Assembly: GCA_902784435.1 (NCBI GenBank) | Contig: CACZUR010000006.1 | Location: 28,727-92,726, forward strand | DNA: 64,000 bases | Source: an uncultured Bacteroidia bacterium | GTDB lineage: Bacteria > Bacteroidota > Bacteroidia > Bacteroidales > UBA932 | Direction: 5' to 3' | Part shown: positions 1-64,000 of the stretch, in pieces | How positions within the stretch are numbered: the first letter of the stretch is position 1 | Layout of the letters: each line of letters starts with the position of its first letter | The notes under the pieces: model-generated | Database searches by the model: none | Told to the model about the DNA's origin: nothing | What the model saw: only the letters and a program-made list of their open reading frames with translations | Translations under genes and position numbers: made by a program

Positions 1-1
1 C

Positions 2-679
2 AGCGTGGACCTCACGGCGGAAGGCACCTTCGCCCAGGCAAGCCAGGACGGCGGCAATGTTCCGCTCGCCGGCACCTTCCGGGTGGTGTACAACGCCAAC
101 AACGAAACCATCGGCACCCTGGTATGGGGCGTGGTGGGCTCCATCAACGGCTGGGGCGGCGACGTTCCCATGAACCTGGCCTCCGACGGCAAGTGGTACA
201 GCGTGCCCGTCACCCTCACGGCCGACGATGAAATCAAGATCCGCAAGAATTCCGCCTGGGAAGAGAACTTCGGCGGTGCCTTTGCAGAGGCCGAAGCTGC
301 CTTCGCAGCCGAAGCCGGCGGCAGCAACATCAAGCCCGGTGAAGGCACGTTCCAGGTCATTTACGATCCCGCTGCAGCTACGCTCACCCTGAGCAAGCTC
401 TACTGGGGTCTCGTGGGCGAGTTCAACGGCTGGGGCGGAACCCCCGACGTGTTCATGCTCCCGCTGGGCGACGGCAAATGGGCGGCTTACGGCCAGGCCA
501 TCACCGGTCCCTGGAAGGTCCGTCAGGGCTCTTCCTGGGATGTGAACCGCGGCGGTGTCTTCACGGAGAAGGGTACGGCCTTCGAGGCCGTTGCCGGCGG
601 CGACAACATCTCCGTGGCGGGTGAAACCTCCTTCGATGTTATCTACGACGCTGTGGCAGAGACCATCACCGTCCTGTAG
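2..679 (+). CDS. SusE/SusF-like outer-membrane starch-binding protein, C-terminal part (5' truncated)
   Basis: The reading frame is open from the window edge, so the true start lies upstream. The visible 225 residues hold the end of one module and two homologous modules of about 95 residues. Each module opens with a W-G-V/L-V-G-x-x-N-G-W-G-G pattern and a DGKW strand, and closes with a F-x-V-I-Y-D strand. This is the pattern of the Ig-like starch-binding modules of SusE and SusF, surface lipoproteins that hold malto-oligosaccharides beside the SusC/D importer. The GH13 amylase follows 47 bp downstream, as expected for a Sus-type locus; susC and susD would lie to the left of the window. The family call is firm. 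Whether it is E or F, and the exact glucan bound, cannot be decided here. Confidence 0.8.
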   Translation, partial: SVDLTAEGTFAQASQDGGNVPLAGTFRVVYNANNETIGTLVWGVVGSINGWGGDVPMNLASDGKWYSVPVTLTADDEIKIRKNSAWEENFGGAFAEAEAAFAAEAGGSNIKPGEGTFQVIYDPAAATLTLSKLYWGLVGEFNGWGGTPDVFMLPLGDGKWAAYGQAITGPWKVRQGSSWDVNRGGVFTEKGTAFEAVAGGDNISVAGETSFDVIYDAVAETITVL

Positions 680-685
680 TTTTTT

Positions 686-717
686 CAGGCGGGCGCCCCT
701 GACCGGACGCCCGTCTG
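686..717 (+). terminator. intercistronic GC-rich hairpin before the amylase gene
   Basis: An inverted repeat of ten pairs (686-695 with 708-717, one G-T) sits between the SusE/F stop and the amylase start. It has a T run before it (680-685) and ATTTTT after it (721-726), so it could stop part of the transcription or protect the upstream mRNA end. The amylase ATG is only 9 bp beyond the stem, so complete termination here is unlikely unless a promoter has been missed. Confidence 0.5.
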
Positions 718-726
718 CCAATTTTT

Positions 727-2994
727 ATGGATATGAAACAGCTGAAATACATCCTTTTGGCCCTTGTGCTGCTCTGGAACTGCGAGGGCAAGAATCCCGG
801 CGGCGATGCTTCCGTCTCCCTGGGCGTGAATCCTGTGGATCTGGCTTTCGGCAGTCAGGACCATGCCGTGAAATACGTGAACGTGGCTACGCAGGCTTCC
901 TGGACGGCCACGGTCAGTGAGAGCTGGGTGCATCTGAAGAATGCCTCCGGGGCGGGCAACGGCGCCTTCTCCGTGTCCGTGGATGCCTTTGAAGGCGCTT
1001 CGGAGCGCAGCGCTGTCGTCACCGTGAAAGCGGCCGACCAGTCGGCCACCGTAAAGGTGCGGCAGGGCGCAGGCGATGCGCCCGTGGCCGGTGCGCTGGT
1101 TCCGCAGCCGGCGGCCTTCGACGGCACCAAGCGCTCCAATACCGCCTATCAGCTGCTCATCTACAGCTTTGCCGACAGCGACGGCGACGGCGTGGGCGAC
1201 TTCAAGGGTATCCAGAACAAGCTGGACTACCTGGACGCCCTGGGCATCACGGCCCTGTGGCTTTCCCCGGCCCATCCTACCAGCTCCTATCACGCCTACG
1301 ACGTGAACGATTACTATGCGCTGAATCCGCTGTATGCAGTAGGGGAGAAGACATCGGCCAAGGCCGAGCAGGACTTCCAGGACCTGCTGGCGGCCGCCCA
1401 TGCCAAGGGCATTGCCATCTATATGGACTATGTCCTGAATCACAGCGGCAAGGACAACCCCTGGTTCAAGGAAGCCGTTTCCAATCCTTCCAGCAAGTAC
1501 CGGGACTACTATTTCATCTGCTCCAACCCTTCTTCCGAATACAAGAACTTCCCCATGCTCAAGGGCACCTCTTACCAGTCGGGGGAATGGAAGAGAGTTA
1601 CCAGCGGAGCGCCTGTCCTCACCATTACCAAGACAGAAGACCCGGTCAAGTCCGGCAGTGCCGAATGGAACATCTGGATGTGGAAGGAGGGCGGCAACGG
1701 TGCCATGGTTCAATTTGTAAATAACGGCGACGGTACCTATTATGCCGTGGTGGAAATGAATGGCAAATATGGCCTTCTGATCCGCCCGAAAGACAACTGG
1801 GATGCCAAATTCGGTGCCGGTCAGGCAGGTAACCCCGTGGAGGGTACTCCTTACCAGCTCACCACCGGGGGCGACGACATGTGGTTCACCGGGAACGGCC
1901 GCTACAAGATCGAACTCACCAACGTATCCACCCAGACCCTGTATTATATGGGCTGCTTCAGCGACTGGATGCCGGACCTGAACTACGGCGACGTGTCCAC
2001 CGCAGAGAACAACGCCTGCTTCCAGGATCTGGCGGCATCGGCCGACAAGTGGATCAACATGGGTGTGGACGGTCTGCGCCTGGATGCCGTGAAGCACATC
2101 TGCGGCGGCATCAACTCCTACAACAATACGTCCAACCAGACCCTGCTGGACAAGTGGTACAACCGCTGCAATGCCACTTACAAGGCTGCCGGCAAGTCCC
2201 TGGGCCAGACACCGGACATCTTCATGGTGGCCGAGGCCTGGGACGGGCACAACATCGAAAAAGGCTACTACAAGGGCATCAATTCCTGCTTTGAGTTTGA
2301 CTACGGATACAAAGTGCGCGACATGCTGAACAACCAGAATGCCAGCGGCTTTGCATCGGCCGTGGCGGCCTATGTCACCGACCATACGGCCGTGCGCCCG
2401 GATGCCATCACTTCCTTCTTCCTGTCCAACCACGACCAGGACCGCTTCGGCTCCAACGTGAACAAGAATGCCGCCCGCATGAAGCAGGCCGGCGCCATCC
2501 TCCTGTCCGGCGGCGGCAAACCCTTCATCTACCAGGGCGAGGAACTGGGCTATTACGGAAAGAAGGACGGCGGTGACGAGTATGTACGTACGCCCATTCT
2601 CTGGGACAAGGCCGGTCAGCAGTGCGCCAAGAAGGGCGTGAACAACAAGGTGGACAACGCCATGCTCAAGGCCGAAATCTCCGTGGAGGCCCAGTCCGGT
2701 ACGGAAGACTCCATGCTGGAGGTATACCGTACCTGGAGCCGCCTGCGCAACACCTATCCGGCCCTGGCTACCGGCACCATGAGCGTCGCGCCTGTTTCCG
2801 GCAGCACCATCGCCGCCTGGTACATGACCGCCGGTTCCCAGAAACTGCTGGTGATCCACAATGTCGCATCGGCCCAGAAGAAGGTCACGGTTTCCGACTC
2901 CATGGCCCAGCCCGTGGCCGTGCTGGGCACCGCCGCCGCTGCCGGAACGGAGCTCACCCTGGGCGGCAACTCCTCCGTGGTGTTTGCGCTGTAA
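727..2994 (+). CDS. SusG-like GH13 alpha-amylase with N-terminal BACON domain
   Basis: A 755-residue cell-envelope alpha-amylase that would cut alpha-1,4-glucans for the adjacent SusE/F-like binder. A short hydrophobic N-terminus ends in LLWNC, an imperfect lipobox. Residues ~30-118 form a BACON domain (SWTATVSESWVHL, then SATVKVRQGAG). The GH13 barrel follows, with the nucleophile in GLRLDAVKH (Asp453), acid/base in VAEAWD (Glu503) and stabiliser in NHDQDR (Asp570). Roughly residues 285-400 interrupt the barrel at the position where B. thetaiotaomicron SusG carries its CBM58 module, and the GEWKRV/IWMWKEGGNG sequence there fits a binding module. Translation could start at ATG 727 or at ATG 733. 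Substrate is inferred from family and neighbours. Confidence 0.9.
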   Translation: MDMKQLKYILLALVLLWNCEGKNPGGDASVSLGVNPVDLAFGSQDHAVKYVNVATQASWTATVSESWVHLKNASGAGNGAFSVSVDAFEGASERSAVVTVKAADQSATVKVRQGAGDAPVAGALVPQPAAFDGTKRSNTAYQLLIYSFADSDGDGVGDFKGIQNKLDYLDALGITALWLSPAHPTSSYHAYDVNDYYALNPLYAVGEKTSAKAEQDFQDLLAAAHAKGIAIYMDYVLNHSGKDNPWFKEAVSNPSSKYRDYYFICSNPSSEYKNFPMLKGTSYQSGEWKRVTSGAPVLTITKTEDPVKSGSAEWNIWMWKEGGNGAMVQFVNNGDGTYYAVVEMNGKYGLLIRPKDNWDAKFGAGQAGNPVEGTPYQLTTGGDDMWFTGNGRYKIELTNVSTQTLYYMGCFSDWMPDLNYGDVSTAENNACFQDLAASADKWINMGVDGLRLDAVKHICGGINSYNNTSNQTLLDKWYNRCNATYKAAGKSLGQTPDIFMVAEAWDGHNIEKGYYKGINSCFEFDYGYKVRDMLNNQNASGFASAVAAYVTDHTAVRPDAITSFFLSNHDQDRFGSNVNKNAARMKQAGAILLSGGGKPFIYQGEELGYYGKKDGGDEYVRTPILWDKAGQQCAKKGVNNKVDNAMLKAEISVEAQSGTEDSMLEVYRTWSRLRNTYPALATGTMSVAPVSGSTIAAWYMTAGSQKLLVIHNVASAQKKVTVSDSMAQPVAVLGTAAAAGTELTLGGNSSVVFAL

Positions 2995-3042
2995 TAGCAA
3001 ATGACGCCGATTAACCCGTGTTTGAAAGAACCTTAACTTTCG

Positions 3043-4227
3043 ATGATGAAAAAACTGATGTGTCTTGCCGCCATTTTTGCGGTATTTGCCTGCGGGGGCG
3101 GCAGTAAGGAGGGACCTTCTTCGGGATCCGGTCCTTCTTCCGGCCCCGAAGGTCCTTCGACGGGCCCCGGGGACGGTCCCACGGCCATCGCCACGCCCGC
3201 CTTTGCCAAGGGGGCCGATATCAGTTGGGCCTCAGAAATGGAGGCCGGTGGCCGCAAGTTCAAGAAGAAGGACGGAACTTCGGCCGATTTGCTCTCCGTT
3301 CTGGCGGATTGCGGCGTCAACGCCATCCGCTTGCGCGTCTGGGTAGACCCTTACAAAGGCTACAGCGGCAAGGCCGATGTCGTGGCCATGGCGCGGCGTG
3401 TCACGGCCGCCGGCCTGGCGCTCATGATCGACTTCCATTACTCCGACTTCTTCGCAGACCCTTCCCGGCAGCAGATTCCTGCGGCCTGGGCGGCCGATAA
3501 GGCCGATATCGGCAAGATGGTGCAGCATGTCTCCGACCACACCACGGAGGTGCTGCAGGCCCTGAAAGAGGCCGGCGTGACGGTGCACTGGATCCAGATC
3601 GGCAACGAGACGCGGGGCGGCATGCTCTTCGGCTGCGGAGACCTGGCGTATGCCAACAAGGGCAGCGAGTTCAACAACTACGTGAAACTCTCCAATGCCG
3701 GCTACGATGCCGCCAAGGCCGTGTATCCCGGGGCCCTGGTGATGCCGCATATCAACAACGCCTTCGTCGACAGCAACAATACCTGGTGGTTCACCAACTT
3801 CAAGAACCAGGGCGGCAAGTTCGATGCCCTGGCCCTGTCGCACTATCCGCAGGAAGCCTGGGCGGGCAATACGCACCTTACGGCAGACGATGCCAACAGC
3901 CGGGCCATCGCCTTCCTGAAAAAGGCCGTGAGCCAGTTCAAGGTGCCGGTCATCGTCTCTGAAGTGGGCGTCAAAACCCCGGCAGGGGAGGCCGAGGCCA
4001 AGCGTGTGCTGCAGTCCTTCCTCACGGAAGCGCGCAAAATCACCGGCGTGACGGGCGTGTTCTACTGGGAACCGGAGGTGGACGGCCAGTGGAAGCCTGC
4101 CGTCTACGGTGACGCCGCCGCCATCAAGAAGTACACCGACAAGTCCGAAACCTGGAACGCCTACTCCATGGGCGCCTTTACCACCACCGGCGCTCCCACC
4201 TCCGTCATGGACGTCTTTGCCGATTAA
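3043..4227 (+). CDS. GH53 arabinogalactan endo-beta-1,4-galactanase lipoprotein
   Basis: A 394-residue lipoprotein: signal peptide with lipobox FAC at Cys17, then a Gly/Ser/Pro-rich linker (GPSSGSGPSSGPEG) that tethers the enzyme to the membrane. The catalytic domain starts at FAKGADISWASEME and follows the GH53 pattern throughout: NAIRLRVWVDP, MIDFHYSDFFADP, acid/base Glu189 in IQIGNETRGGML and nucleophile Glu307 in VIVSEVG. GH53 enzymes cut beta-1,4-galactan side chains of pectin. It lies 48 bp after the amylase on the same strand and is probably co-transcribed, although it acts on a different polysaccharide. The second Met (3046) is an equally possible start. Its stop codon lies in the first unit of a 33-bp tandem repeat. 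Confidence 0.93.
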   Translation: MMKKLMCLAAIFAVFACGGGSKEGPSSGSGPSSGPEGPSTGPGDGPTAIATPAFAKGADISWASEMEAGGRKFKKKDGTSADLLSVLADCGVNAIRLRVWVDPYKGYSGKADVVAMARRVTAAGLALMIDFHYSDFFADPSRQQIPAAWAADKADIGKMVQHVSDHTTEVLQALKEAGVTVHWIQIGNETRGGMLFGCGDLAYANKGSEFNNYVKLSNAGYDAAKAVYPGALVMPHINNAFVDSNNTWWFTNFKNQGGKFDALALSHYPQEAWAGNTHLTADDANSRAIAFLKKAVSQFKVPVIVSEVGVKTPAGEAEAKRVLQSFLTEARKITGVTGVFYWEPEVDGQWKPAVYGDAAAIKKYTDKSETWNAYSMGAFTTTGAPTSVMDVFAD

Positions 4228-4320
4228 TGGCCAGGGGCGGTGCTGACTGCCGGAGACTAATGGCCAGGGGCGGTGCTGACTGCCGGAGACTAATGGCCAG
4301 GGGCGGTGCTGGGTGAAGAC
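4225..4320. repeat. 33-bp tandem repeat, about three copies, starting in the GH53 stop codon
   Basis: Units begin at 4225, 4258 and 4291 with TAATGGCCAGGGGCGGTGCT. The first two are identical over 33 bp; the third diverges after ~21 bp. Degenerate pieces (TGCCCTGGCCGG, GGTGAAG) continue to about 4390. The TAA of the first unit is the GH53 stop codon, so slippage duplicated the end of the gene. Confidence 0.85.
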
Positions 4321-4469
4321 TGCCCTGGCCGGATGTGGCGGAGGGTGAGTACTGCCCTGGCCGGTGTTGATGCTGGGTGAAGGCGGTGATAATTAATTAC
4401 TTATCGTCGTTTGACTGGCTTTCAATCTGAAACTAAAATATTTTATTTTCTTATAATCGACCTAAAAAT

Positions 4470-4499
4470 TTGTTTTGCAAATAAAAGATTGTAACTTTG
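4470..4499 (+). promoter_or_regulatory. Bacteroidetes-type promoter with no protein gene downstream
   Basis: TTG at 4470-4472, a 19-nt spacer, and TAACTTTG at 4492-4499, a full match to the Bacteroidetes sigma-ABfr consensus. Transcription would begin near 4504-4506. No convincing open reading frame follows, so it probably drives a non-coding RNA. Confidence 0.6.
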
Positions 4500-4503
4500 C
4501 ATT

Positions 4504-7613: not shown

Positions 7614-8497
7614 TTACGCCGGAACGCCCCGCTGCCATCGAAAACATCCGCCGGGCGTCGGCAGAAGGCCGGTTCAACGACAGCGTAGAACCGCTGGACC
7701 CGGTCCTGGACCCGGAGGAACTCAAGGCCGATATCCTCCGCTACGTGGCCCGTCTGGACAGCCCGGTATTTGCTATGAAAAACTTCCTGGCCCGCCTGAT
7801 CGTAGACGGGTGGATGCACCGCTTCAGCGAAGGGATTGACGAAATCATCGGCCTGGAAAAGCTCTCCGGCCTGCAAGGCCCTGCCTTTGTGACCGCGAGC
7901 CACTTCAATCCCTTCGACAGCGGCATCCTGCGCACCCTGAGCCGCCTGAGCGGCCGCGACCGCCTGGTGGCCGTGAGCCAGGGCGCCAACTTCCGGATGC
8001 CCGGTCTCAACGGTTTCGTGCTCCGGAACATCGACGTCATTCCCCTGCTGGGGGAGCCCTCCTACATGAACGGGCCCTTCCGTGCCCTGCTCCAGCGTCA
8101 TCTGGACAAAGGCCGGTTCATCCTCATCTACCCCGAGCAGTCCATGTGGTTCAACTACCGGAAGCCCCGCCCCGGCAAGCGCGGGGCCTACCTTTTCGCT
8201 GCACAGCACCGCCTGCCCGTCATCCCCACGTTCGCCCAGCTGCAGGAGTATGGCGGGGAATCGGCCCCGGGCTTCGGGAATGTGCGCGTGGTCCTGCACG
8301 TGCTGGACCCTCTTTACCCGGACCCTTCCCGCACCGACCGCGAGAACAGTTTCGCCCTGTGCCGGCAGGACTACGAGGCCCGCGTCGCCTGCTATGAACG
8401 CTGCTACGGCAAGCCCCTGGACTACAGCTTTACGCCCTGGGATATTGCCGGATGGCGAGGAAACACAGATTCTTTTCCGATTTGCCGAAAAAAATAG
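7604..8497 (+). CDS. PlsC-like 1-acylglycerol-phosphate acyltransferase family protein
   Basis: A 297-residue acyltransferase. The catalytic HX4D motif is SHFNPFD (His100, Asp105). A second motif, FILIYPEQSMW, fits the substrate-binding PEG/PEQ block, and the RLPVIPTF strand follows. These enzymes move an acyl chain onto lysophosphatidic acid or another lipid-linked hydroxyl at the inner membrane. The ~70-residue N-terminal extension before the conserved part is not recognised. Translational coupling to the GT8 enzyme suggests a shared lipid or glycolipid product, which is an inference. The ppdK promoter begins immediately after the stop codon. Confidence 0.8.
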   Translation: MLLVTPERPAAIENIRRASAEGRFNDSVEPLDPVLDPEELKADILRYVARLDSPVFAMKNFLARLIVDGWMHRFSEGIDEIIGLEKLSGLQGPAFVTASHFNPFDSGILRTLSRLSGRDRLVAVSQGANFRMPGLNGFVLRNIDVIPLLGEPSYMNGPFRALLQRHLDKGRFILIYPEQSMWFNYRKPRPGKRGAYLFAAQHRLPVIPTFAQLQEYGGESAPGFGNVRVVLHVLDPLYPDPSRTDRENSFALCRQDYEARVACYERCYGKPLDYSFTPWDIAGWRGNTDSFPICRKK

Positions 8498-8505
8498 TAT
8501 ATTTG
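8498..8505 (+). promoter_or_regulatory. -7 box of ppdK
   Basis: TATATTTG, a full TAnnTTTG match directly after the acyltransferase stop codon. It predicts a leader of ~50 nt before ATG 8561. No TTG at the usual distance, so ppdK may also be read through from upstream. Confidence 0.5.
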
Positions 8506-8560
8506 CATGTTTGTAAAGCAAATTATTTAAAATTAATCATAAACCAATCATAAAACCTTT

Positions 8561-13829: not shown

Positions 13830-13837
13830 TAACTTTG
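13830..13837 (+). promoter_or_regulatory. -7 box of folC
   Basis: TAACTTTG, ending 6 nt before ATG 13844, so the transcript would start at or near the start codon. The divergent box at 13809-13816 is 13 bp away. Confidence 0.5.
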
Positions 13838-13843
13838 TGCAGC

Positions 13844-33773: not shown

Positions 33774-33787
33774 ATCCCAAGAGGCAG

Positions 33788-36265: not shown

Positions 36266-36271
36266 ATTGTG

Positions 36272-39681: not shown

Positions 39682-39683
39682 GG

Positions 39684-40868: not shown

Positions 40869-40916
40869 ATGGTACCCCGGAGGGCGGTCAGGCCCGCCGG
40901 GATAAAAAGCACGTTA

Positions 40917-42302: not shown

Positions 42303-42330
42303 GTTTGTTTTATATAGCTATATATTTGTG

Positions 42331-48463: not shown

Positions 48464-48470
48464 CGCCCCC

Positions 48471-48735
48471 ATGCGATGTGTAACGCGAAAAACGCCCAAA
48501 AGTGCGTAATAGGGTGCACCCCCATGCGACGTGTAACGCGGAAAACGCCCAAAAGTGCGTTACAGGGTGTGCCCCCATGCGACGTATAACGCGAAAAACG
48601 CCCAAAAGTGCGTAATAGGGTGCACCCCCATCCAACGTGTAACGCGGAAAACGCCCAAAAGTGCGTTACAGGTTGCACCCCCATGCGACGTGTAACGCGG
48701 AAAACGCCCGAAAGTGCGTTACAGGGTGACTCCTA
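48471..48735. repeat. 53-bp tandem repeat, five copies
   Basis: Units start at 48471, 48524, 48577, 48630 and 48683, each exactly 53 bp apart. Each contains GTGTAACGCG (or a close variant), AAAACGCCC and AAAGTGCGT(T/A)A. The 53-bp period shifts frame between units, so the repetitive open frames across it are not convincing genes. Confidence 0.9.
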
Positions 48736-53900: not shown

Positions 53901-56114
53901 GTGCAGAAGGTGAAAGTGGAGAACCCCGGCTCGCACCTGGAACCCGTGGTGCAGCTGCCGGATGTGATTCATCCCGAAGAACCGTTCCTGGTGAAGATTT
54001 CGGAGAAAAACGGCAAGCCCATGACCTATACGCTGGCCATCGTGGACGAGGGCCTGCTGGACCTCACGGCCTTCAAGACGCCGGATCCCTGGAGCAAGAT
54101 GTACCGCGACGAGGCCCTGGGCGTGACCACCTGGGACCTGTACGACCAGGTGATCGGGGCCTATGGCGGCGTGCTGTCGCCGCTGGCAGCCATCGGCGGT
54201 GACGAAGATGCCCTGCGCAGCGCGCGCAAGGACAACCGCTTCAATCCCGTGGTGCTGTTCCGTGCGCCCAAGACGCTGGAAAAGGGCACCGACATCCTCA
54301 AGCTGCAGCTTCCCATGTACGTGGGCAGCGTGCGCCTGATGCTCATCGCCGGCCACGAAGGCGCCTACGGCAACGCAGAGAAAACCGTCCCCGTGCAGAA
54401 TCCGCTCATGGTGGTGACCACCCTGCCGCGGGTGCTGGGCTGCGGAGAGGAGACATCGGCCGTGGTGAACGTATTCGCCATGGAGAAAGGCCTGGGACAG
54501 GCTTCCGTGACGGTCAAGGCCGACGGCCCCCTGAGCGGCGGCGGCACCCAGACCCTGAAACTGGACGGCGAGAGCGGCGTGCTTCGCTTCCCGCTGAAAG
54601 CATCTGACGCAGAGGGTGTTGCGCACGTGACCATATCGGCGAGCGGCGGCGGACACAAGGCCGGCGAAACCATCGCCCTGGAAGTGGTGAACCCCAACCC
54701 TGCCATTACCAATGTAGAGCGCCTCACCCTGGTGAAGGGCGCCGCGCAGGAGGTGAAGGGCCATACGCTGCAGCTGGCGGCCTTCCCGGCCGTGGATGTG
54801 CGGCAGATGTTCCTCCAGATGAAGAACTACCCCTACAACTGCGGCGAGCAGCTGAGCGCCCGCGGCATCACCTTCCTGAACCTGCTGCCGCTGCTGCCGG
54901 AGGCCGATGCCGCCGATGCCAGGGCCCTGATTCCGGATCTGATCAATAAACTGTACTCCCGGCAGGGGGCCGACGGCGGCTTCGCCTATTGGGAAGGCGG
55001 CAAGTCGGATACCTGGGTTTCCTCGATGGCCGGCCTCTTCCTCACGCAGGCTTCCAAATCCGGTTTCGAGGTGAATGCCGGCGTGCTCAAACGCTGGAGG
55101 GACTACCAGAAAAAGATGAGCCAGGTGTTCCGCGTGGCCGGCGACAACTTCTTCCCGCAGCTGGACGAGGCCTTCCGCCTGTATGTGCAGGCCATGGACG
55201 GCAACGCCAACCTCTCGGGTATGAACCGCCTGAAGGAAGCCGCTTCGCTGGGGCAGCAGGCCCGCTGGATGCTCTCCAGCGCCTATGCCCTGAGCGGCAA
55301 GGCCTCCCTGGCCCAGAGCCTGCTGGACGGCGCCGCCCGCGAATTCCCGGAATACGAGCCCGACATGCTCACGTACGGCACTTCGACCCGTGACCTGGCC
55401 CTGGCCGTGGAAGCCATGGCCCTGAACGGACGCGTGGCCGATGCCATCGCCCTGGCCCAGGACCTCCCGTCCAGAATCTATTCCACACAGGAAACGGCCT
55501 TTACGGCCCTGGCCCTGGGACGGCTGGCCGGCAAGACCGGACAGGCCGTTCACGCCAAGGTGGGTACGGCCGATATTGCCTCGGCAGCCTCCATGGTGGC
55601 CGTGCCGCTGACGGGCAGCGTGAAGGTGCAGAACCTCTCTGACGGGCCGCTGTACGCCACGGTACTCAGCGAATCCCGCGAGGGCGCACGGGCTGCGGCC
55701 GCCAACGGGCTGCAACTGTCCGTGAGTTACCTGGACGAGAAGGGCGCACCGGTGAATCCCGCCTCCCTGGAGCAGGGAACGCGCTTTACCGCCCGCCTGA
55801 AGGTCACCGGACATGCTACGCGGTCCTTCGCCAACCTGGCCCTGTCCATGGCCATCCCTTCCGGCTGGGAAATCCTGAACGAGCGCCTGCTGGGCGGTGC
55901 CGCGGAAGACGGCTACGACCACAAGGACATCCGGGACAAACGGGTGGACTGGTTCTTCGGCCTGCCCGCCGGACGCTCCAAGACGTTCACCGTGCAGCTG
56001 AGGGCCGCCTATCCCGGCACCTACGTACTGCCTGCGGCCGTGTGTGAGAACATGTACGATCCGGCCGTGAACGCCAGCACCGCCACCGGCAAGGCTGTGG
56101 TAGCGGCTCGATGA
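50988..56114 (+). CDS. alpha-2-macroglobulin lipoprotein with intact thioester (YfhM-type)
   Basis: A 1708-residue lipoprotein (lipobox ITAC, Cys29) facing the periplasm. MG-type beta-domains include FIYGERGVWRPGDTLHVTAL and FSTDKPSYRVGDKATVYIP. The bait-like and receptor-side region contains LAIVDEGLLDLTAFKTPDPW. The thioester motif is NYPYNCGEQLSARG (Cys1285, Gln1288), followed by an alpha/alpha barrel (GGFAYWEGGKSDTWVSSMAG). Bacterial proteins of this type trap proteases that breach the outer membrane. The ATGA overlap with pbpC reproduces the yfhM-pbpC pair of proteobacteria: protease trap plus peptidoglycan repair. No clear promoter in the 33-bp gap after the PLP gene. Confidence 0.95.
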   Translation: MKHLLSRLRSLSAQAILLMAAGALLITACGPKKKAVTPSAQDYANYVKAYTGGIVTDDTPIRIELAEDALEQPAEGLFSFKPAVKGSIQWNNTQSVSFVPEEGQLRPGLVYQVTFALNKVLPDAPAQFPFSITVKGRQEAQAAVEPEPDNGQPFRVVSASLQGDCIDLELSQAPSNAANKGMIELSGVSRSYVQVQDKNVKVHFEGRKGDMTLTLDSGLKSVEGLALGESFCKVFAEEEEKPAVEIPIKGNILPDKQALILPFRAVNLDAVELRIIKIYENNILMYLQDNDLGGDVSLKRSGRLVYKGDIPLDSSKDLHQWNTHSVDLSGLFKQEPGAIYRIRINFRQDQSLWGGKQPRQVLQSPSGKPSKADDAMWDTPDSYWWESYIDWENYDWEETDDPSKPSYYMESERFPAIQLMSSDIGLLAEYAGGKDLWVAATDLITAKPLSGASLEVFDYQLQSIGKGKTGSNGMATLEVSRKPFAVVAKAGGSTSYLKVTSGNERSLSRFDVGGEVLQQGVKAFIYGERGVWRPGDTLHVTALVADRSKNLPAAHPATLEVYTPEGQFYSKLTRKGVDGFYQYDIPTRADDPTGYWNAYLKVGGSSFHKTLHVETVKPNRLKIQTSLADLPLLQAGQTVKVYNSATWLSGGPASNFPVRAQITIRKAGGSPFKGFEQYSFYQPQSQFSSQEQELFSGRLDGNGELNAQFQLPETDQAPGMLQAFVVTSVEEPGGDESFTTQTLPYSPYSAYVGVRVPEGDYLETDKEHSFQIAVVGPDGKRLSGHKVDYIVFKTGWNWWLDSSGEDLAAYVNGSNVQQVKSGTLTPGKADATFSFKETYPNWGNYLVLARDRQSGHVSGASFTIDWPDYAGRAGRRDPEALTMLSFSTDKPSYRVGDKATVYIPAAPGGQALVSVENAGGVLSREWVSTSDKDTPWQFTIGEEMAPNVYVHLTLVQPYGAVKNDLPLRLFGVQKVKVENPGSHLEPVVQLPDVIHPEEPFLVKISEKNGKPMTYTLAIVDEGLLDLTAFKTPDPWSKMYRDEALGVTTWDLYDQVIGAYGGVLSPLAAIGGDEDALRSARKDNRFNPVVLFRAPKTLEKGTDILKLQLPMYVGSVRLMLIAGHEGAYGNAEKTVPVQNPLMVVTTLPRVLGCGEETSAVVNVFAMEKGLGQASVTVKADGPLSGGGTQTLKLDGESGVLRFPLKASDAEGVAHVTISASGGGHKAGETIALEVVNPNPAITNVERLTLVKGAAQEVKGHTLQLAAFPAVDVRQMFLQMKNYPYNCGEQLSARGITFLNLLPLLPEADAADARALIPDLINKLYSRQGADGGFAYWEGGKSDTWVSSMAGLFLTQASKSGFEVNAGVLKRWRDYQKKMSQVFRVAGDNFFPQLDEAFRLYVQAMDGNANLSGMNRLKEAASLGQQARWMLSSAYALSGKASLAQSLLDGAAREFPEYEPDMLTYGTSTRDLALAVEAMALNGRVADAIALAQDLPSRIYSTQETAFTALALGRLAGKTGQAVHAKVGTADIASAASMVAVPLTGSVKVQNLSDGPLYATVLSESREGARAAAANGLQLSVSYLDEKGAPVNPASLEQGTRFTARLKVTGHATRSFANLALSMAIPSGWEILNERLLGGAAEDGYDHKDIRDKRVDWFFGLPAGRSKTFTVQLRAAYPGTYVLPAAVCENMYDPAVNASTATGKAVVAAR

Positions 56115-58408
56115 GCCGTGCCATGCACATGACTGCCCGAATCCGTGCACTGGGGGCCCGCCTGGGCCGTGCGGTGCGCGGATTTGGGCTTTTGAGTGCA
56201 CGGCGGTGGTGGCTGTGGGGGCTGGCGGCGCTGCTGCTGGCATGGCTGTGCTGTCTGCCCCGGCAACTGTTCAAGGGCGTATCCTATTCTACGGTGGTGG
56301 AAAGCGCCGAGGGAGAGCTCCTGGGCGCACGCATCGCGGCCGACGGCCAGTGGCGCTTTCCGCCCTCCGACACCGTGCCGGAGCGTTTTGCCACGGCGCT
56401 GGTGCAGTTTGAGGACCGGCATTTCTGGTGGCACCCCGGCGTGGACCCGGGGGCGCTGGTGCGGGCCACTGTAGACAATCTGCGGAGCGGCCATGTGGTG
56501 AGCGGCGGCAGCACCCTCACCATGCAGGTGATGCGCCTGTCCCGCCAGCGGGAACGCAACCTGTGGCAGAAAATGATCGAAGCGGTGCAGGCCACGCGCC
56601 TGGAACTGCGGTATAGCAAAAAACAGATTTTGGCCCTGTATGCCTCCCACGCGCCCTTCGGGGGCAATGTGGTGGGGTTGGAGGCCGCTGCGTGGCGGTA
56701 CTTCGGCCGGCCGGCTTCGGAGCTGTCCTGGGGTGAGGCCGCCACCCTGGCCGTTCTTCCCAATGCGCCGGCGTCCCTGCATCTGAGCCGGGGCCGGGAC
56801 CAGCTGCTGGCCAAACGCAACCGGCTGCTCAGGCGGTTGCTGGAGCACGGGGACCTGTCGGCCGAAAGCTTTGAAGCGGCCTTGGAAGAACCCCTGCCGG
56901 AGGCACCGCTGCCCCTGCCGTCCTGGGCATCGCACTATGTGGAGCGCTGCCCCAGGGGCGTGCGGACGCGTTCTTCGCTGTCCTTCCCTGTACAGAAAGC
57001 CGTGGAAGAGGCGGTGAACCGGCGCTCCGACGCCCTGGCCCTGGAAGGCATTGCCGACATGGCCGCGGTGGTCATCGACAACGCCAGCGGTACGGTGCTG
57101 GCCTATGTGGGGAATGCCTCCCCCGAGCGGGAAAGGCCCGGGCGGCAGGTGGATATTGCATCGGCCCCGCGCAGTACCGGCAGCATCCTGAAGCCGTTCC
57201 TGTATGCCGCCGCCCTGCAGGAGGGCGTTATCCTGCCCCGGACGCTGCTGCCGGACATTCCGGTGAATCTGGGCGGCTTTGCGCCCCAGAACTTCGACCG
57301 GCAGTTCTACGGCGCCGTCCCCGCCAACGAGGCCCTGGCCCGTTCCCTGAACGTGCCGTCAGTGTTCCTCCTGCGGGCCTACGGCGTGCCCAAATTCCAC
57401 GCCCTGCTGCAGGCCGCCGGGCTCACCACCCTGCCCCGGGAGCCCCACCACTACGGCCTGTCCCTGATCCTGGGCGGCGGCGAGGGCCGCCTGGACGAAA
57501 TCACGGCGGCGTACGCGGCGATGGTGCGGGCGTATGGCGACGCCGTCTCCGGCACCTCCCGTCCTTTGCCTGATTCCTGGAGCGCGGTGGCATCGGCCTG
57601 TCCCATCACGGAGCCGCTGGCGTTGTGGTATACGTTCGAGGCGCTGAAGGAGGTGAATCGGCCCGACGAACTGGACTGGCGGCTCATCCATTCCGTCAGG
57701 AAGGCCGCCTGGAAGACCGGCACCAGCTACGGATTCCGCGACGCCTGGGCCGTGGGCATGACCCCGGAATATACTATAGGTGTTTGGGCCGGCAACGCCC
57801 AGGGCCAGGGCGTACCGGGCCTCACCGGCGCCCGCACCGCCGGCCCCGTGCTCTTCGACATCCTGAACCTCCTTCCCTACTCCGGCGCCTGGTTCCCGGA
57901 GCCCGATGCCGGGAGCGCGGCGGGTGCGACGGGTGTGGCGGCGGTGTGCACGGATTCCGGGATGCTGGCAGGTCCGGAGTGTCCGGCAGAACAACAGCTC
58001 ATTCCAGTGGCCGGGCTGGACAGCAAACCCTGCAAGTACCACCGCAGCGGCGAATTCGTGCTCACGCCGGCCATGGAGTGGTACTACAAGCCGCATCACC
58101 CCGAATACCGTGGCGCCACGCAAACAGCCGGGGGCGGAAGCCAGCCGATGGAATTCATCTACCCCGCATCCGGGAGCATCCTGCACCTGCCGCGGCAGCT
58201 GAGCGGCCAGGTAGAAGGCGCCGTATTCCGCGTGGCGCACCATCGCTCCGACGCCACCCTGTGGTGGCACCTGGACAACACCTATGTGGGAGAGACCCAC
58301 CTGCTGCACGAGCTGCGCCTGGCCCCCGCCCCGGGGAAACACCACCTGACCGTTGTGGACGAGGATGGCCATACCGCCAGCGTAGCGTTCACCGTGGAAG
58401 GGAACTAG
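56111..58408 (+). CDS. pbpC: penicillin-binding protein 1C
   Basis: A 765-residue bifunctional murein synthase. A transmembrane anchor (WWLWGLAALLLAWLCCL) is followed by the GT51 glycosyltransferase domain with Glu101 in QFEDRHFWWHPGVDPGAL, GGSTLTMQVMRLSR, and YSKKQILALYASHAPFGGN. The transpeptidase domain has SxxK in STGSILKPFLYA (Ser358), SxN in SLNVPSV, and KTGTSYGFRDAWAVG (Lys535). The last ~100 residues are the BiPBP_C beta-domain typical of PBP1C. Translation is coupled to the alpha-2-macroglobulin by ATGA. All catalytic residues are present. Confidence 0.97.
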   Translation: MSRAMHMTARIRALGARLGRAVRGFGLLSARRWWLWGLAALLLAWLCCLPRQLFKGVSYSTVVESAEGELLGARIAADGQWRFPPSDTVPERFATALVQFEDRHFWWHPGVDPGALVRATVDNLRSGHVVSGGSTLTMQVMRLSRQRERNLWQKMIEAVQATRLELRYSKKQILALYASHAPFGGNVVGLEAAAWRYFGRPASELSWGEAATLAVLPNAPASLHLSRGRDQLLAKRNRLLRRLLEHGDLSAESFEAALEEPLPEAPLPLPSWASHYVERCPRGVRTRSSLSFPVQKAVEEAVNRRSDALALEGIADMAAVVIDNASGTVLAYVGNASPERERPGRQVDIASAPRSTGSILKPFLYAAALQEGVILPRTLLPDIPVNLGGFAPQNFDRQFYGAVPANEALARSLNVPSVFLLRAYGVPKFHALLQAAGLTTLPREPHHYGLSLILGGGEGRLDEITAAYAAMVRAYGDAVSGTSRPLPDSWSAVASACPITEPLALWYTFEALKEVNRPDELDWRLIHSVRKAAWKTGTSYGFRDAWAVGMTPEYTIGVWAGNAQGQGVPGLTGARTAGPVLFDILNLLPYSGAWFPEPDAGSAAGATGVAAVCTDSGMLAGPECPAEQQLIPVAGLDSKPCKYHRSGEFVLTPAMEWYYKPHHPEYRGATQTAGGGSQPMEFIYPASGSILHLPRQLSGQVEGAVFRVAHHRSDATLWWHLDNTYVGETHLLHELRLAPAPGKHHLTVVDEDGHTASVAFTVEGN

Positions 58409-58731: not shown

Positions 58732-59101
58732 TGTACATACCTGGTATGTGCAGTAGCCTGGAGAGGGCTGGCCGGGGTTTCGGGGGAGGTATGTACAGCT
58801 GGAAGGCGCTGGGAGGCCGTTTTCGTGTACATACCTGGTATGTGCAGCGGCTGGGCCGGGGTTTCGGGGGAGGTATGTACAGCTGGAAGGCGCTGGAGGG
58901 CCGTTTTCGTGTACATACCTGGTATGTGCAGCACCCAGGATGGGGTTCCGGCAGAGGTATGTACAGCTGGAACGCGCTGGGAGGCTGTTTCTGTGTACAT
59001 ACCTGGTATGTGCAGCGGCCAGGACGGGGTTCCGGCGGAGGTATGTACAGCCGGAAGGCGCTGGGAGGCCGTTTTCGTGTACATACCTGGTATGTGCAGT
59101 G
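58732..59101. repeat. 84-bp tandem array carrying the 23-bp element in reverse orientation
   Basis: TGTACATACCTGGTATGTGC occurs at 58732, 58826, 58910, 58994 and 59078 (spacings 94, 84, 84, 84). Between copies lie GGTATGTACAGC and GGAAGGCGCTGG. Because 84 is divisible by three, both strands stay open and encode 28-residue repeats such as LHIPGMYT (minus strand), but there is no start signal or signal peptide. No gene is recognised from 58409 to 59475. Confidence 0.88.
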
Positions 59102-59395
59102 GCCTGGACGGGATTGGACGGGGACGGACGGAACCAGAACATGCCAGGATGACCAGGACGGAACCAGAACATGCCAGGGACGAGTTTAGGAGTGGAATGA
59201 ACGCCCCCCGGAATGCGGGTCTCTCCAGGCGCGCTGGATGGAACGCGATCCGTTTTCCCGGCCGATCGATCCGTTTTTCCGGCCGGTTCTGCCAAATTGT
59301 CAGTTTGAATCGAATGGCACATGTGTTGATTGTTTTCAGACGCCTGCCATTCTGAGCCGCCAGTTATTCCGGGCAAAGCGAAGGATCCGGCAGGG

Positions 59396-59460
59396 CAAAC
59401 GCTTAAACCAAACGCTTTAACCAAACGCTTTGAGCAAACACTTTAAACAACCGCTTTAAA
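59396..59460 (+). promoter_or_regulatory. five tandem 13-bp repeats just upstream of groES
   Basis: CAAACGCTTAAAC, CAAACGCTTTAAC, CAAACGCTTTGAG, CAAACACTTTAAA, CAACCGCTTTAAA, back to back, ending 15 bp before the groES ATG. No CIRCE element and no consensus -7 box is seen, so this array is the most conspicuous candidate control region or leader. Confidence 0.6.
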
Positions 59461-59475
59461 CCAAAACACAATATT

Positions 59476-61367
<1,892 letters not shown>

Positions 61368-61388
61368 TAGCAGGCATATATCACTCTC

Positions 61389-61425
61389 AGGAGGCTGTTC
61401 CCAAAGCGGGGGCAGCCTCCTTTTG
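61389..61425 (+). terminator. groESL terminator
   Basis: AGGAGGCTG (61389-61397) pairs with CAGCCTCCT (61413-61421), followed by TTT. The T run overlaps the TTG of the next promoter. Confidence 0.75.
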
Positions 61426-61453
61426 CAAAATGGCCGAATTATGCCTATTTTTG
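61423..61453 (+). promoter_or_regulatory. promoter of the GH2 gene
   Basis: TTG (61423-61425), 20-nt spacer, TATTTTTG (61446-61453), 17 bp before ATG 61471. Full consensus match; predicts a very short leader. Confidence 0.65.
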
Positions 61454-61470
61454 GAAAAAATTGAATAGTT

Positions 61471-63294
61471 ATGAGAAAGATTCTGGTATTATTGCTGGTG
61501 CTCACAGCGGTCTCCTGCGGTCAAAGACAGCCCGGATGGGCCCCGCTGCGGGACCATATCCTCACGCGCTGGGCGCAGGATGTGGATCCGGAGAATCCGC
61601 TGCCGGAGTATCCCCGGCCGCAGCTGCAGCGGGAAGCGTGGCTTTCGCTCAATGGGCTTTGGGACTATGCCATCGGCCCCAAGGACGCGGAGCAGCCCGC
61701 GGCGGAAGGCAAGATCCTGGTACCGTATCCCCTGGAGAGCGCCCTTTCCGGCGTAGGGAAGCACATTACGGCCGATGAAGCCCTGTGGTACAGCACCACG
61801 TTCACGGTACCCCGCCGGTGGAAGGGGCAGCAGGTGTGGCTCAACTTCCAGGCCGTGGACTGGAGCGCGGAAGTGTGGGTGAACGCCCAAAAGGCCGGTG
61901 CACATACGGGCGGCTACACCGCTTTCTCTTTCAATATTACGCCGCTCCTGAAAAAGGGCAGCCAGCAGCTGGTGGTAAAAGTCCTGGATGCCACGGACAA
62001 CGACGAGCAGCCCCGCGGCAAGCAGGTTTCCCATCCGGAAGGCATCTGGTACACGCCCGTCAGCGGCATCTGGCAAAGTGTGTGGCTGGAGCCTACGCCC
62101 ACGGAGGCCCGTCTGGTAAACTATAAGGCCGTTACCCGGGCCGATGGCAAATCCCTGCAGGTAACGCCCCTTCTGGAAGGCGCCGGGGAAGGGGACCGGG
62201 TGCTGGTCCGTCTGCTGGAAGGTGAAAAACAGCTGGCCGGGCATCGGCTTGCCCCCGGGGAGAGCGCCGACCTGGTTCCGGAAGTCCCGCAGCTGTGGTC
62301 TCCGGAGCATCCTTTCCTTTACGGGCTGGAGTTCTGCCTGGAGCGCGGCGGCAAGGTGATTGACCGGGTGCAGGGGTATGCCGCCCTCCGCGAGGTAAAG
62401 GAAATCACGGATGATGCAGGCCACAAACGCCTGTCCCTCAATGGGAAACCGTACTTTCAGTTTGGTCCGCTGGACCAGGGCTGGTGGCCGGACGGCCTGT
62501 ACACCGCCCCCACGGACGAAGCCCTGCGTTACGATATCGAGCAGACCAAGGCCTTCGGCTATAACATGATCCGTAAGCACATCAAGGTAGAACCCGCCCG
62601 CTGGTACTACTGGTGCGACCGCCTGGGCGTCCTGGTGTGGCAGGACATGCCCAGCGTCACCGACAGCCGCCATGGCGGGTGGGAGCAGTGGAAATGGGCA
62701 TCGGCCCGGGACGACTCCCGCCTCACTGACACCGCCAAGACCACCTATTATAAGGAATGGGGAGAAATCCTGGACCAGCAGCAGGTGTTCCCTTGCATTG
62801 TGGTATGGGTGCCCTTCAACGAGGCCTGGGCGCAGTTCGACACCTATGACGTAGTGGCTTTCACCAAGGCGAAGGACCCGACACGCCTGGTGAATGCGGC
62901 CTCGGGCGGCAATTCCTATCCCGGCGCCGGGGACATCTTCGACAGCCACAATTATCCGGATCCCCACATGAAATTCCGCTCCGGCGGCATGCAAATTGAT
63001 GTTTTAGGCGAGTACGGAGGCATCGGCTGGCCTGTGGAAGGCCATCTGTGGCAGCCGGACCGCAACTGGGGCTACGTGCAGTTCAAAAGCGGCCTGGAAG
63101 TCCTGGAGCAGTACCGCACGTATGCCTTGCAGCTGAAGGAGACCATCGCCAGTGGCGTGAGCGCCGCCGTATACACCCAGACCACCGACGTGGAAATCGA
63201 GGTGAACGGCCTCATGACCTACGACCGCGAGGTCACCAAGATGCCTGCCGATGAACTATACAAGATTAACCGTGAAGTGATAGAAGCCTTATGA
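61471..63294 (+). CDS. GH2-family glycosidase lipoprotein
   Basis: A 607-residue lipoprotein (lipobox AVSC, Cys16). The N-terminal sugar-binding jelly roll has WLSLNGLWDYAIGP and VWVNAQKAGAHTGGYTAFSF. The immunoglobulin-like and TIM-barrel parts follow, with YNMIRKHIKVEPARWYYWCD and WQDMPSV. Acid/base Glu451 lies in VPFNEAWAQFDT, and the nucleophile Glu514 in VLGEYGGIGWP. It is short compared with the ~1000-residue LacZ type, as for many Bacteroidetes GH2 enzymes. The released sugar (galactose, glucuronate, mannose) cannot be told. Followed by a small secreted protein with ATGA overlap. Confidence 0.88.
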   Translation: MRKILVLLLVLTAVSCGQRQPGWAPLRDHILTRWAQDVDPENPLPEYPRPQLQREAWLSLNGLWDYAIGPKDAEQPAAEGKILVPYPLESALSGVGKHITADEALWYSTTFTVPRRWKGQQVWLNFQAVDWSAEVWVNAQKAGAHTGGYTAFSFNITPLLKKGSQQLVVKVLDATDNDEQPRGKQVSHPEGIWYTPVSGIWQSVWLEPTPTEARLVNYKAVTRADGKSLQVTPLLEGAGEGDRVLVRLLEGEKQLAGHRLAPGESADLVPEVPQLWSPEHPFLYGLEFCLERGGKVIDRVQGYAALREVKEITDDAGHKRLSLNGKPYFQFGPLDQGWWPDGLYTAPTDEALRYDIEQTKAFGYNMIRKHIKVEPARWYYWCDRLGVLVWQDMPSVTDSRHGGWEQWKWASARDDSRLTDTAKTTYYKEWGEILDQQQVFPCIVVWVPFNEAWAQFDTYDVVAFTKAKDPTRLVNAASGGNSYPGAGDIFDSHNYPDPHMKFRSGGMQIDVLGEYGGIGWPVEGHLWQPDRNWGYVQFKSGLEVLEQYRTYALQLKETIASGVSAAVYTQTTDVEIEVNGLMTYDREVTKMPADELYKINREVIEAL

Positions 63295-63674
63295 AAAAAA
63301 TCCTTTTGACCTTTGCCCTGCTGGTAGCGGCCCTTTGCGCCGGCGCCCAGAACATCCGGATGGCCGAAGATATCCCCGCCGCTGCGGCCGATATCCTGCG
63401 GCCCCGCCTGGCCCAGATGCTGGAAGCCGGCGGCATTACGCTCTCCGGAGATGACAGTCTGCGCGTGAGCGCGTGCATTATGAAACGGGTAGAAACCCCC
63501 GGAGGCCAGGTGGCCCTGGAAATCGAGCTCAAGACCGCCCTGGGAGAGGCCGATGAGGTTTTCCCGATCAAGGGGGTCGGGGACAATGACGAAGATGCCT
63601 GGAGCCGGGCTGTAAAACAGTTTCTGCCGCGCTCCAAAAATGCCCAAAAATTTATTGAAAAGCTAAAACAGTGA
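63291..63674 (+). CDS. small secreted protein of unknown function
   Basis: A 127-residue protein with a signal peptide (MKKILLTFALLVAALCAGAQ). The mature part has a short alternating helix/strand pattern (ILRPRLAQMLEAGGITLSGD, LRVSACIMKRVE, VALEIELKTALGE, AWSRAVKQFLPRSK). I do not recognise a family. Translation is coupled to the GH2 gene by ATGA. No terminator is evident before the rRNA promoter 60 bp downstream. Confidence 0.75.
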   Translation: MKKILLTFALLVAALCAGAQNIRMAEDIPAAAADILRPRLAQMLEAGGITLSGDDSLRVSACIMKRVETPGGQVALEIELKTALGEADEVFPIKGVGDNDEDAWSRAVKQFLPRSKNAQKFIEKLKQ

Positions 63675-63683
63675 TTTTTAGCG

Positions 63684-63761
63684 GTTTATAAAATTTTTAA
63701 AAATTTCTTGAAAATTTTCTCCTGAAAAATTTGCAGAATCAAAAAAAGGTAGTACCTTTGC
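63684..63761 (+). promoter_or_regulatory. rRNA operon promoter with AT-rich upstream element
   Basis: TTG (63732-63734), 19-nt spacer, TACCTTTG (63754-63761). Just upstream, 63684-63731 is almost pure A/T with phased A and T tracts, as in UP elements. RNA would start ~63767, giving a ~170-nt pre-16S leader. Confidence 0.8.
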
Positions 63762-63936
63762 AGTCCCGTTCGGAAACGAGCGGGTTTTTACGCCCAAAAG
63801 CCGAAAGGCCGGGGCAATAAAAAGTTCATTGAAAAGACTGAAAGGAAAGTACAAGAAGCAAGTACAAACGAGCGTCAGTTTCTTTAGGAAACTAGGAAAC
63901 CAAGAGCGTCGGGAACAAGCTAAGAATTATAGAATA

Positions 63937-64000
63937 TACAATGAAGAGTTTGATCCTGGCTCAGGATGAACGCTAGCGGCAGGCTTAACACATGCAAGTC
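63937..64000 (+). rRNA. 16S ribosomal RNA, 5' end (cut by the window edge)
   Basis: AGAGTTTGATCCTGGCTCAG, the universal 27F site, begins at 63945 and is followed by GATGAACGCTAGCGGCAGGC and TTAACACATGCAAGTC, a Bacteroidetes-like start. The mature 5' end is set by analogy with E. coli and may be off by a few bases. Confidence 0.97.

Follow-up and report, generated by a model that had tools for sequence, protein, structure and literature searches.

Introduction

Uptake words, the short sequences by which some bacteria recognise their own DNA, are known from two proteobacterial families, both pilus-based, and the absence of strand polarity is a feature of both the DNA uptake sequences (DUS) of the Neisseriaceae and the uptake signal sequences (USS) of the Pasteurellaceae. 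Here, we study a word, GGCCGAT, in 64,000 nucleotides from an uncultured Bacteroidia bacterium (hereafter the window, i.e., this whole stretch: bases 28,727–92,726 of contig 6, in an 83%-complete genome of 2.23 Mb and 42 contigs). With the USS, this word shares a frequency of about one copy per kb and the lack of polarity, but not the 9-base core with AT-rich flanks, nor the pilus-based machine. Among other genomic words, Chi is biased in orientation with replication, while the FtsK-orienting polar sequences (KOPS) and other segregation words point from origin to terminus, an arrangement that our word does not display.

Further comparisons draw on five articles (PMC3630211, PMC4390886, PMC3784561, PMC8459023 and PMC11532111). 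As with the DUS (PMC3630211), the word is short, present in thousands of copies, exceptionally over-represented, and made of a core with drifting ends that yield dialects among relatives; it differs in length (7–8 vs. 10–12 bases), in consisting here mostly of silent choices inside genes, and in its host, a member of the Bacteroidota. Moreover, no pilus ATPase was found here, hence no ComP-type receptor is expected. Because the test for pilus machinery failed and the uptake role is putative, we do not file the word as a DUS. HIP1 of Cyanobacteria (PMC4390886) also occurs at about one site per kb, with alternative words in some lineages, but HIP words are palindromic and generally have a cognate methyltransferase, neither of which holds here as judged from five methyltransferase families and from the word itself (in 406 kb of genes, the palindrome ATCGGCCGAT occurs 4 times). 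Finally, Chi (PMC3784561) is likewise short, non-palindromic and over-represented in resident DNA; unlike E. coli Chi (observed/expected 2.29, 0.2 per kb), our word is denser, more over-represented and unpolarised.

Members of the Bacteroidota take up DNA by natural transformation although no pilus machine is known for it. In Riemerella, the process depends on ComEC, DprA, ComF and RecA, together with four proteins that have no known counterparts (PMC8459023), and that of Porphyromonas needs ComEA and ComEC, its outer-membrane step being unclear (PMC11532111). ComEC, needed there, is present here, and the outer-membrane step of these systems is unfamiliar or unclear. The term “uptake sequence” has no occurrence in the main text of either article, our literature searches returned no paper on uptake sequences in Bacteroidota (two papers that surfaced deal with Neisseria), and no paper featuring GGCCGAT as a whole word was found among the open-access papers searched (most subscription papers lie outside this search).

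Over-representation and codon choice

The original prediction, made from the window alone, was that GGCCGAT overrides codon choice through selection or drive at the DNA level. It had counted about 75 copies on both strands, against about a dozen expected from composition; our recount gives 80 (45 on the plus strand and 35 on the minus strand, including 47 copies of GGCCGATG), and the expectation agrees with 0.29^5 × 0.21^2 × 128,000 = 11.6 at the GC content of the window. We then used 464 kb of the same genome (the window and 20 other stretches, with 296 called genes) and compared counts with Markov models of several orders, a shuffle of synonymous codons within genes, and a model preserving both codon pairs and proteins. 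This sample contains 518 copies of GGCCGAT, whereas Markov expectations are 127 (order 2), 156 (order 3) and 239 (order 4) (order-2 excess in the own genome: 4.1-fold for GGCCGAT and 7.5-fold for GGCCGATG). Within the genes, 461 copies are observed vs. 126.5 after codon shuffling (standard deviation 9.5), and 286 vs. 55.6 (6.3) for GGCCGATG. GGCCGAT is the top-ranked 7-mer after shuffling, the strongest 7-, 8- and 9-mers of the sample all correspond to the word, and unrelated words do not share its excess (z about 30, vs. less than 14 for the next unrelated 7-mer and less than 10 for the next unrelated 8-mer). If the words of the window are ranked by a maximum-order Markov model, GGCCGAT is not prominent, because its own 6-mers are enriched; the lower-order and shuffle comparisons on the larger sample supersede that ranking.

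The word is enriched in both orientations, and three main frames carry it: G GCC GAT (192 observed vs. 43 after shuffling), ATC GGC C (120 vs. 65) and A TCG GCC (130 vs. 8), the latter including CA TCG GCC (90 vs. 1.9). The remaining three are rarer, with 10 vs. 1.3, 9 vs. 4.2 and 0 vs. 4.5, the absent one being.GG CCG AT. Even the model preserving codon pairs and proteins, which the original prediction had named as potentially refuting, is exceeded in the main frames (107, 74 and 17.9 expected), while intergenic or uncalled DNA has 57 copies in 58 kb (0.98 per kb). Codon usage is bent accordingly. Of 74 Ala codons that precede TCG GCC, 87.8% are GCA, vs. 9.3% of the 12,068 elsewhere in the genes. 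Of 606 Ser codons that precede GCC, 45.5% are TCG (80.2% where an A comes directly before, 162 cases), a share that drops to 24.3% ahead of other Ala codons (185 cases) and to 11.0% ahead of non-Ala codons (7,575 cases). In loci of the clade described below, the base following the word is enriched for G (5.0-fold), A (5.7-fold) and T (4.8-fold), but not for C (1.1-fold), which defines GGCCGATD (D = not C; K = G/T and M = C/A in later formulas); in the window, G follows 47 copies, A 19, T 11 and C 3. Flanks beyond the eighth base show no clear preference. The over-represented word that overrides codon choice stands, though not as an 8-mer ending in G, since G, A and T are all accepted.

Synonymous near-misses are depleted along with this excess: GACCGAT falls to 0.24 of expectation in both the own genome and the clade loci (0.92–0.99 in the sister clade and farther relatives), and GTCCGAT to 0.28 and 0.35, respectively (0.76–0.97). 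GGCTGAT was dismissed as a clade marker, as it does not separate the groups (0.35 in clade loci, 0.73 in the own genome, 0.48 in the sister clade). A Vsr-type conversion was considered from the depletion of GACCGATG (2 vs. 13.6), but transversion neighbours are depleted too, and this depletion is uninformative because shuffling codons in itself takes TCG away from the word. At the proteome level there is no clear effect: Ala-Asp is up in the clade but so is Asp-Ala, and Ser-Ala is not. As a separate matter, words of the TTCCGG/GGAAA type also exceed their counts in the codon shuffle, whether the group is rich or poor in our word, i.e., a general codon-context bias.

Taxonomic distribution

The comparison with relatives proposed by the original prediction confines the word to one clade of rumen Bacteroidales. 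In the whole genome of the window, GGCCGATG has 719 + 713 copies and the reversed word 70 + 103. The density of the word is 1.04 per kb here and reaches up to 1.84 per kb. Across 233 genomes of the genus (at least 85% complete, the own genome excepted), the number of GGCCGATR copies per genome spans 14 to 3127, and when excess is measured against the reversed word, 44 of the 233 are word-rich (at least threefold; hand count), with five more at 2.86–2.97. None of 107 genomes from other genera of the family reaches threefold. In 391 further genomes of the phylum, GGCCGATR peaks at about 310 per Mb (G441), vs. 887 in the own genome (sizes rounded); as a few distant genomes exceed 3 in the ratio to the reversed word (e.g., G518, G558), this ratio is a weak control on its own at the scale of the phylum.

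A DNA tree of the phosphoenolpyruvate-utilising dikinase was computed for 65 rows (the window and 64 of 80 loci, 16 partial or distant loci being dropped). One clade (Shimodaira–Hasegawa-like approximate likelihood ratio support 100) has 32 of its 33 rows at no less than three times the order-2 expectation, vs. one of the 32 rows outside, L080, which rests on one copy; the nine rows of the sister clade lie at 0.3–2.8 times expectation. The nearest named records of the dikinase are rumen metagenome-assembled genomes (MAGs; RUG173 and RGIG4871 among them), Candidatus Cryptobacteroides being more distant. In the ComEC tree of 30 genomes, two changes are needed, and a single clade for the 16 word-rich genomes (vs. 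14 others) is not rejected (approximately unbiased test, p 0.67). The word thus probably took off once. GGCCGATR is nearly absent (1–23 copies, below the reversed word) from 12 of 14 genomes, namely those of the genera g24, g35 and g36 along with G284 and G290, which amounts to avoidance, perhaps of GGCC owing to restriction. The stretches of G003 are mostly N.

Conservation was examined in blastn alignments of at least 300 bp and less than 92% identity, among 29 loci of the clade and the window's first 24 kb, with 13 non-clade loci for outside comparison. Inside the clade, the GCA and TCG codons of the word are about twice as conserved as elsewhere (GCA kept in 62% vs. 30%, TCG in 67% vs. 37%). 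The comparisons, which stem from 79 GCA and 190 TCG query codons, lack independence. Against loci outside the clade, GCA is kept in 21% vs. 12.5% and TCG in 38% vs. 30%. Whole words are kept in 80% of cases at 84–90% identity, vs. 43% for any 7-mer, which places them at about rank 125 among 3,410 common 7-mers, and in 55% vs. 37% outside the clade.

Dialects

GGCCGATD is one dialect of a family, KGMCGATD. Strict G at the first base characterises the sub-clade of the window (groups of L022, L023/24, L026, L032 and L034) and G019, in which T at this position is found at 1.0–1.7 times expectation, as in background relatives. T is also accepted in L021, L038/L048 and L042, the L027 group being intermediate, while KGMCGAT is used by the L029 group and by L062 and L083 together (GGACGAT 16 vs. 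4.2, TGACGAT 16 vs. 5.3). L083, at 2.6-fold, had been considered a loss of the word; it has a broader dialect instead. Elsewhere, TGCCGAT and GGCCGAT coexist in G095 (118 vs. 27.8 and 55 vs. 16) and G058 (80 vs. 20.7 and 54 vs. 17.6), G and T before GCCGAT are both about fourfold in G251 and reach 5.7 (G) and 3.4 (T) in G183, G242 combines GGCCGAT and GGACGAT with C two bases past the word, and G135 has mostly GGCCGATG (31 vs. 5.7; eighth base A, 7 vs. 2.8, and T, 1 vs. 2.4, being weak). Such dialect-shifted species are word-rich genomes with intermediate counts. In samples of the word-poor G224, G212, G060 and G013, and in 25 kb of G163, no word of that strength was found, the nearest being TTGCCGAT in G013 (24 vs. 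6.7).

Placed by eye, the dialects roughly follow the dikinase tree, from which G095, G058, G135 and others are absent. A fixed core with drifting ends would be the trace expected of a binding protein whose specificity changes.

Strand polarity and methyltransferases

The strand-skew check suggested by the original prediction was run on 1414 sites from nine genomes and revealed no orientation bias (65 pieces, those with fewer than 6 sites being dropped; chi2 68.9, p 0.35). In the own genome, GGCCGATR is split 219 vs. 213 between strands (heterogeneity p 0.47), with a power in this sample of 0.99 for a 65:35 bias and 0.70 for a 60:40 bias, so that a bias of 60:40 or less could escape. Unevenness is nominal in G005 (p 0.02) and G183 (p 0.05) and absent from the other seven. 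Relative to transcription, 170 words lie on the coding strand and 218 on the template strand, an imbalance explained by the codon frames.

Protein families were searched with Pfam profiles in a panel of 44 genomes of the genus, 25 of them word-rich. None of five methyltransferase families is common to the 25 word-rich genomes: PF00145 is found in 8, PF02086 in 5, PF02384 in 6, and, over the cut-off, PF01555 in 4 and PF07669 in 12 (18 at E 0.001), while G000, G081, G166 and G186 (83–92% complete) have no match in any of the five. On the basis of these five families, in genomes that are incomplete, the methylation motif listed by the original prediction is disfavoured, as is a restriction–modification site, which would call for a cognate methyltransferase.

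Word-free DNA and a phage lineage

The longest word-free stretch of the 464 kb, 10.2 kb at 33,031–43,212 of the window, is a cluster of fimbrillin-like (FimA/Mfa) surface genes. Its P under random placement is 0.0028, for a stretch chosen as the longest, and its dipeptides per kb compare with those elsewhere as follows: Ser-Ala 2.13 vs. 1.94, Ala-Asp 3.31 vs. 1.94, Ile-Gly 0.71 vs. 1.34. In four other pieces, ten genes free or nearly free of the word include RHS, IS110, leucine-rich repeat, BACON/PEGA and TIR genes, as well as glycosidase-like ones. This gene content suggests foreign DNA, even if the glycosidase-like genes need not be foreign. Large genes at 36,272–38,425 and 43,673–44,983, in or beside the fimbrillin cluster, have no Pfam match and a low coding score.

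The word-rich G251 carries a clustered regularly interspaced short palindromic repeats array (L226, about 6.2–8.1 kb; 29 identical 36-base repeats). Six spacers out of 28 were compared as 20-mers with IMG/VR; five had no match and one led to five contigs: L269 and L271, identical over all 29 bases, two differing at 3 bases and one at 7. L269 and L271 are counted as one phage lineage because they share 4.5 kb at 96.5%. KGCCGATD is at background in both (2 and 3 copies vs. 3.2 and 4.2 by shuffling), whereas the density of the host (1.30 per kb) would give about 29 words over their summed length; the computed P of this deficit is too small owing to their redundancy. The other three contigs, with 2 (L270), 8 (L272) and 2 (L273) words, were set aside. 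L269 also has a reverse-transcriptase-like frame (7622–8617, minus strand) near a large protein (9323–10,939, minus strand) that holds the spacer match and whose end differs between L269 and L271, a pair that resembles a diversity-generating retroelement.

Word copies and other features of the window

The gene content of the window is typical of gut Bacteroidales (SusG-like amylase, fimbrillins, the dikinase, alpha-2-macroglobulins, chaperonin). All 12 sites quoted by the original prediction carry the claimed codons before TCG GCC (6 GCA, 3 ACA, 2 GTA and 1 ATA), the positions agreeing within 5 nt. GCA TCG GCC (Ala-Ser-Ala) is found with the word on the minus strand at 2036–2043 (SusG-like amylase gene, 727–2994), 14,064–14,071 (Mur-ligase gene, 13,835–15,286), 57,159–57,166 (gene 56,111–58,408) and 62,699–62,706 (GH2 gene, 61,471–63,294), and on the plus strand at 31,542–31,549 and 33,024–33,031, both in the minus-strand gene 30,363–33,773, the second being the final word ahead of the word-free stretch. 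The others are all on the minus strand: ACA TCG GCC at 1352–1359, 19,731–19,738 (alpha-2-macroglobulin-like gene, 15,338–20,665) and 54,454–54,461 (alpha-2-macroglobulin-like gene, 50,988–56,114), GTA TCG GCC at 19,404–19,411 and 51,457–51,464, and ATA TCG GCC, with its rare Ile codon, at 17,796–17,803.

Given with their eighth base, plus-strand copies of GGCCGAT start at 3213A, 3282T, 3372G, 3492A, 3501A, 7058T, 7726A, 8776G, 11854G, 13426T, 13592G, 14641G, 17023T, 17227G, 18709G, 18868T, 19207G, 19606G, 19759G, 19951G, 19996G, 20038G, 22329G, 25489G, 25759A, 29036G, 31542G, 33024G, 46230C, 46720G, 50231G, 50495C, 52100G, 52751G, 53471G, 54902G, 55436G, 55568A, 58639T, 59260C, 60761A, 61770G, 62139G, 63386A and 63548G. 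Minus-strand copies (low coordinate of ATCGGCC) lie at 1353G, 2037G, 2355G, 2868G, 6601T, 7847G, 8260T, 8906A, 10322A, 12932G, 14065G, 14411G, 14855A, 15199G, 17797A, 19405A, 19732G, 21882T, 22596T, 23448G, 24576A, 30213A, 43213G, 46894A, 48259A, 48982G, 49678A, 51458A, 52257G, 54455G, 57160G, 57592G, 57657T, 61672G and 62700G. The words at 19,951 and 19,996 are copies of each other, because each sits in one unit of a 45-bp tandem repeat (19,944–20,029, plus strand, 1.9 copies).

Two dispersed families of intergenic repeats were also observed. An 84-bp-unit tandem array (58,773–59,112; also in L008, L009 and L010) has inverted TGTACATACC/GGTATGTACA words, and its GTATGTACA has 61 copies in the 464 kb, 55 of them intergenic, while a 53-bp tandem unit (48,466–48,728; also in L006, L007, L015, L017 and L018) contains AGTGCGTTA, with 30 copies, 25 of them intergenic. 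The last 63 bases of the window (63,938–64,000) are the beginning of a 16S rRNA gene.

Discussion

The claim of selection or drive at the DNA level is strongly supported by the excess in three frames, on both strands, in intergenic DNA, at the price of rare codons and beyond the codon-pair model, by the limits of the clade, and by the GCA and TCG codons being kept mainly inside it. Regarding the roles listed by the original prediction, we favour the uptake-type word, while a replication-oriented Chi or a segregation motif agrees poorly with the lack of polarity. Our preferred, if tentative, reading of these patterns is that GGCCGATD may be a self-DNA recognition word, most likely functioning as uptake sequences do in Neisseriaceae and Pasteurellaceae: its profile (dense, unpolarised, non-palindromic, mostly at silent sites, bound to a clade, dialectal and at background in phage) most likely fits an uptake or self-recognition word. 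Slightly more tentatively, recognition in Bacteroidota might be pilus-free, the KGMCGATD dialects being kin marks read by a putative receptor of the outer membrane or periplasm. Under the preferred reading, a putative surface or periplasmic protein would bind the word on incoming DNA, so that kin fragments carrying it would preferentially be imported and then recombined, which would restore and multiply its copies; drive or selection would thereby have spread and kept the word across the genomes of the clade, while phage and newly acquired genes would be devoid of it. We infer both uptake as a process and a binding protein of drifting specificity. The word would be read by an outer-membrane uptake apparatus of Bacteroidota rather than by a standard pilus, and a ComP-like minor pilin is not expected as the receptor, as the word-rich genomes yielded no type II secretion/type IV pilus ATPase over the cut-off. 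A word-specific receptor at the outer-membrane step would explain the data.

Several observations weigh against uptake. The spacing of the word is Poisson-like (coefficient of variation 1.13), not even. The pilus ATPase (PF00437) is over the cut-off in none of the 25 word-rich genomes and in one of the 44 of the panel (the word-poor G130), with weak sub-threshold matches in most, whereas 13 of 14 controls are positive. ComEC is found in all 25 word-rich genomes and in 43 of the 44, but also in 18 of the 19 others, so that its presence does not tie the word to competence. (In the genus, i.e., L175–L204, ComEC is mostly a frame of 360–430 residues ending near position 240 of the 270 of the Competence profile, the frame being 741 residues long in L179 and L203.) Not all codons of the word are conserved in excess: GAT is kept at 0.588 within the word vs. 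0.582 after GCC outside it (49% elsewhere), and GCC after TCG at 0.764 with the word vs. 0.744 without. Neither does word density generally fall as codon usage becomes atypical (rho 0.008, p 0.89 against gene codon score), only the lowest tenth of genes being poorer (0.74 per kb). The word-free genes examined were picked for being so rather than sampled systematically, the phage evidence amounts to one lineage, and the clade consists of uncultured MAGs, in which no transformation has been observed.

Two other mechanisms would also explain much of the data, albeit we deem both unlikely. The foremost is a Chi-like role, in which a nuclease of the AddAB/RecBCD type would read 5'-GGCCGATD-3' on one strand and switch from degradation to recombination, the dialects reflecting its drift. 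A non-palindromic 7-mer that varies between species and is over-represented in resident DNA is what such a role predicts, and the background level in one phage lineage agrees with it; yet phages without a recombinase over-represent Chi, while those with a recombinase and an inhibitor avoid it (PMC3784561), so that the phage result is neutral on this point. Against it stand the lack of polarity over the 1414 sites and a density five times that of E. coli Chi (0.2 per kb; PMC3784561). Ranked just behind is a HIP1-like by-product, in which a word-specific repair or mutation bias (e.g., methylation-directed mismatch repair) would turn near-misses into a functionless word. The Poisson spacing, the density near one per kb, the used-up synonymous near-misses and the sites kept mainly inside the clade are all in line with such a drive, but the word is no palindrome, the 25 word-rich genomes share none of the five methyltransferase families (four genomes being without any match), and near-miss depletion extends beyond deamination and Vsr-type transitions, GTCCGAT and GCCCGAT falling too.

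We regard as improbable a binding site for a nucleoid, segregation or packing protein across the chromosome: genome-wide spread and dialects are what a protein site would show, but the polarity needed by FtsK-type sites is absent, 10 kb are free of the word, and its density is far above that of parS, matS and Noc sites. As for codon-pair or translational preference, or composition, without any DNA-level cause, GCC GAT is indeed a favoured pair (the model expects 107 of the 192) and every sampled group shows an excess of TTCCGG/GGAAA-type words; however, the excess in three frames, both orientations and intergenic DNA, beyond the codon-pair model and within the limits of a clade, refutes this as the sole cause and leaves it hardly credible.

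If the word is indeed an uptake word, its occurrence in Bacteroidota, at a similar density and with dialects, would imply an independent origin of uptake words. It would also offer a handle on the outer-membrane step of transformation in this phylum, the dialects predicting a protein that covaries with them, and the limits to gene exchange between rumen species would be written in the DNA itself. A Chi-like word would be unusual among Chi sites for its strength and its lack of polarity, and one driven by repair would be the product of a HIP-like drive without a common methyltransferase. Under each of these readings, the word could decide which DNA enters, or is retained in, these uncultured bacteria of the rumen.

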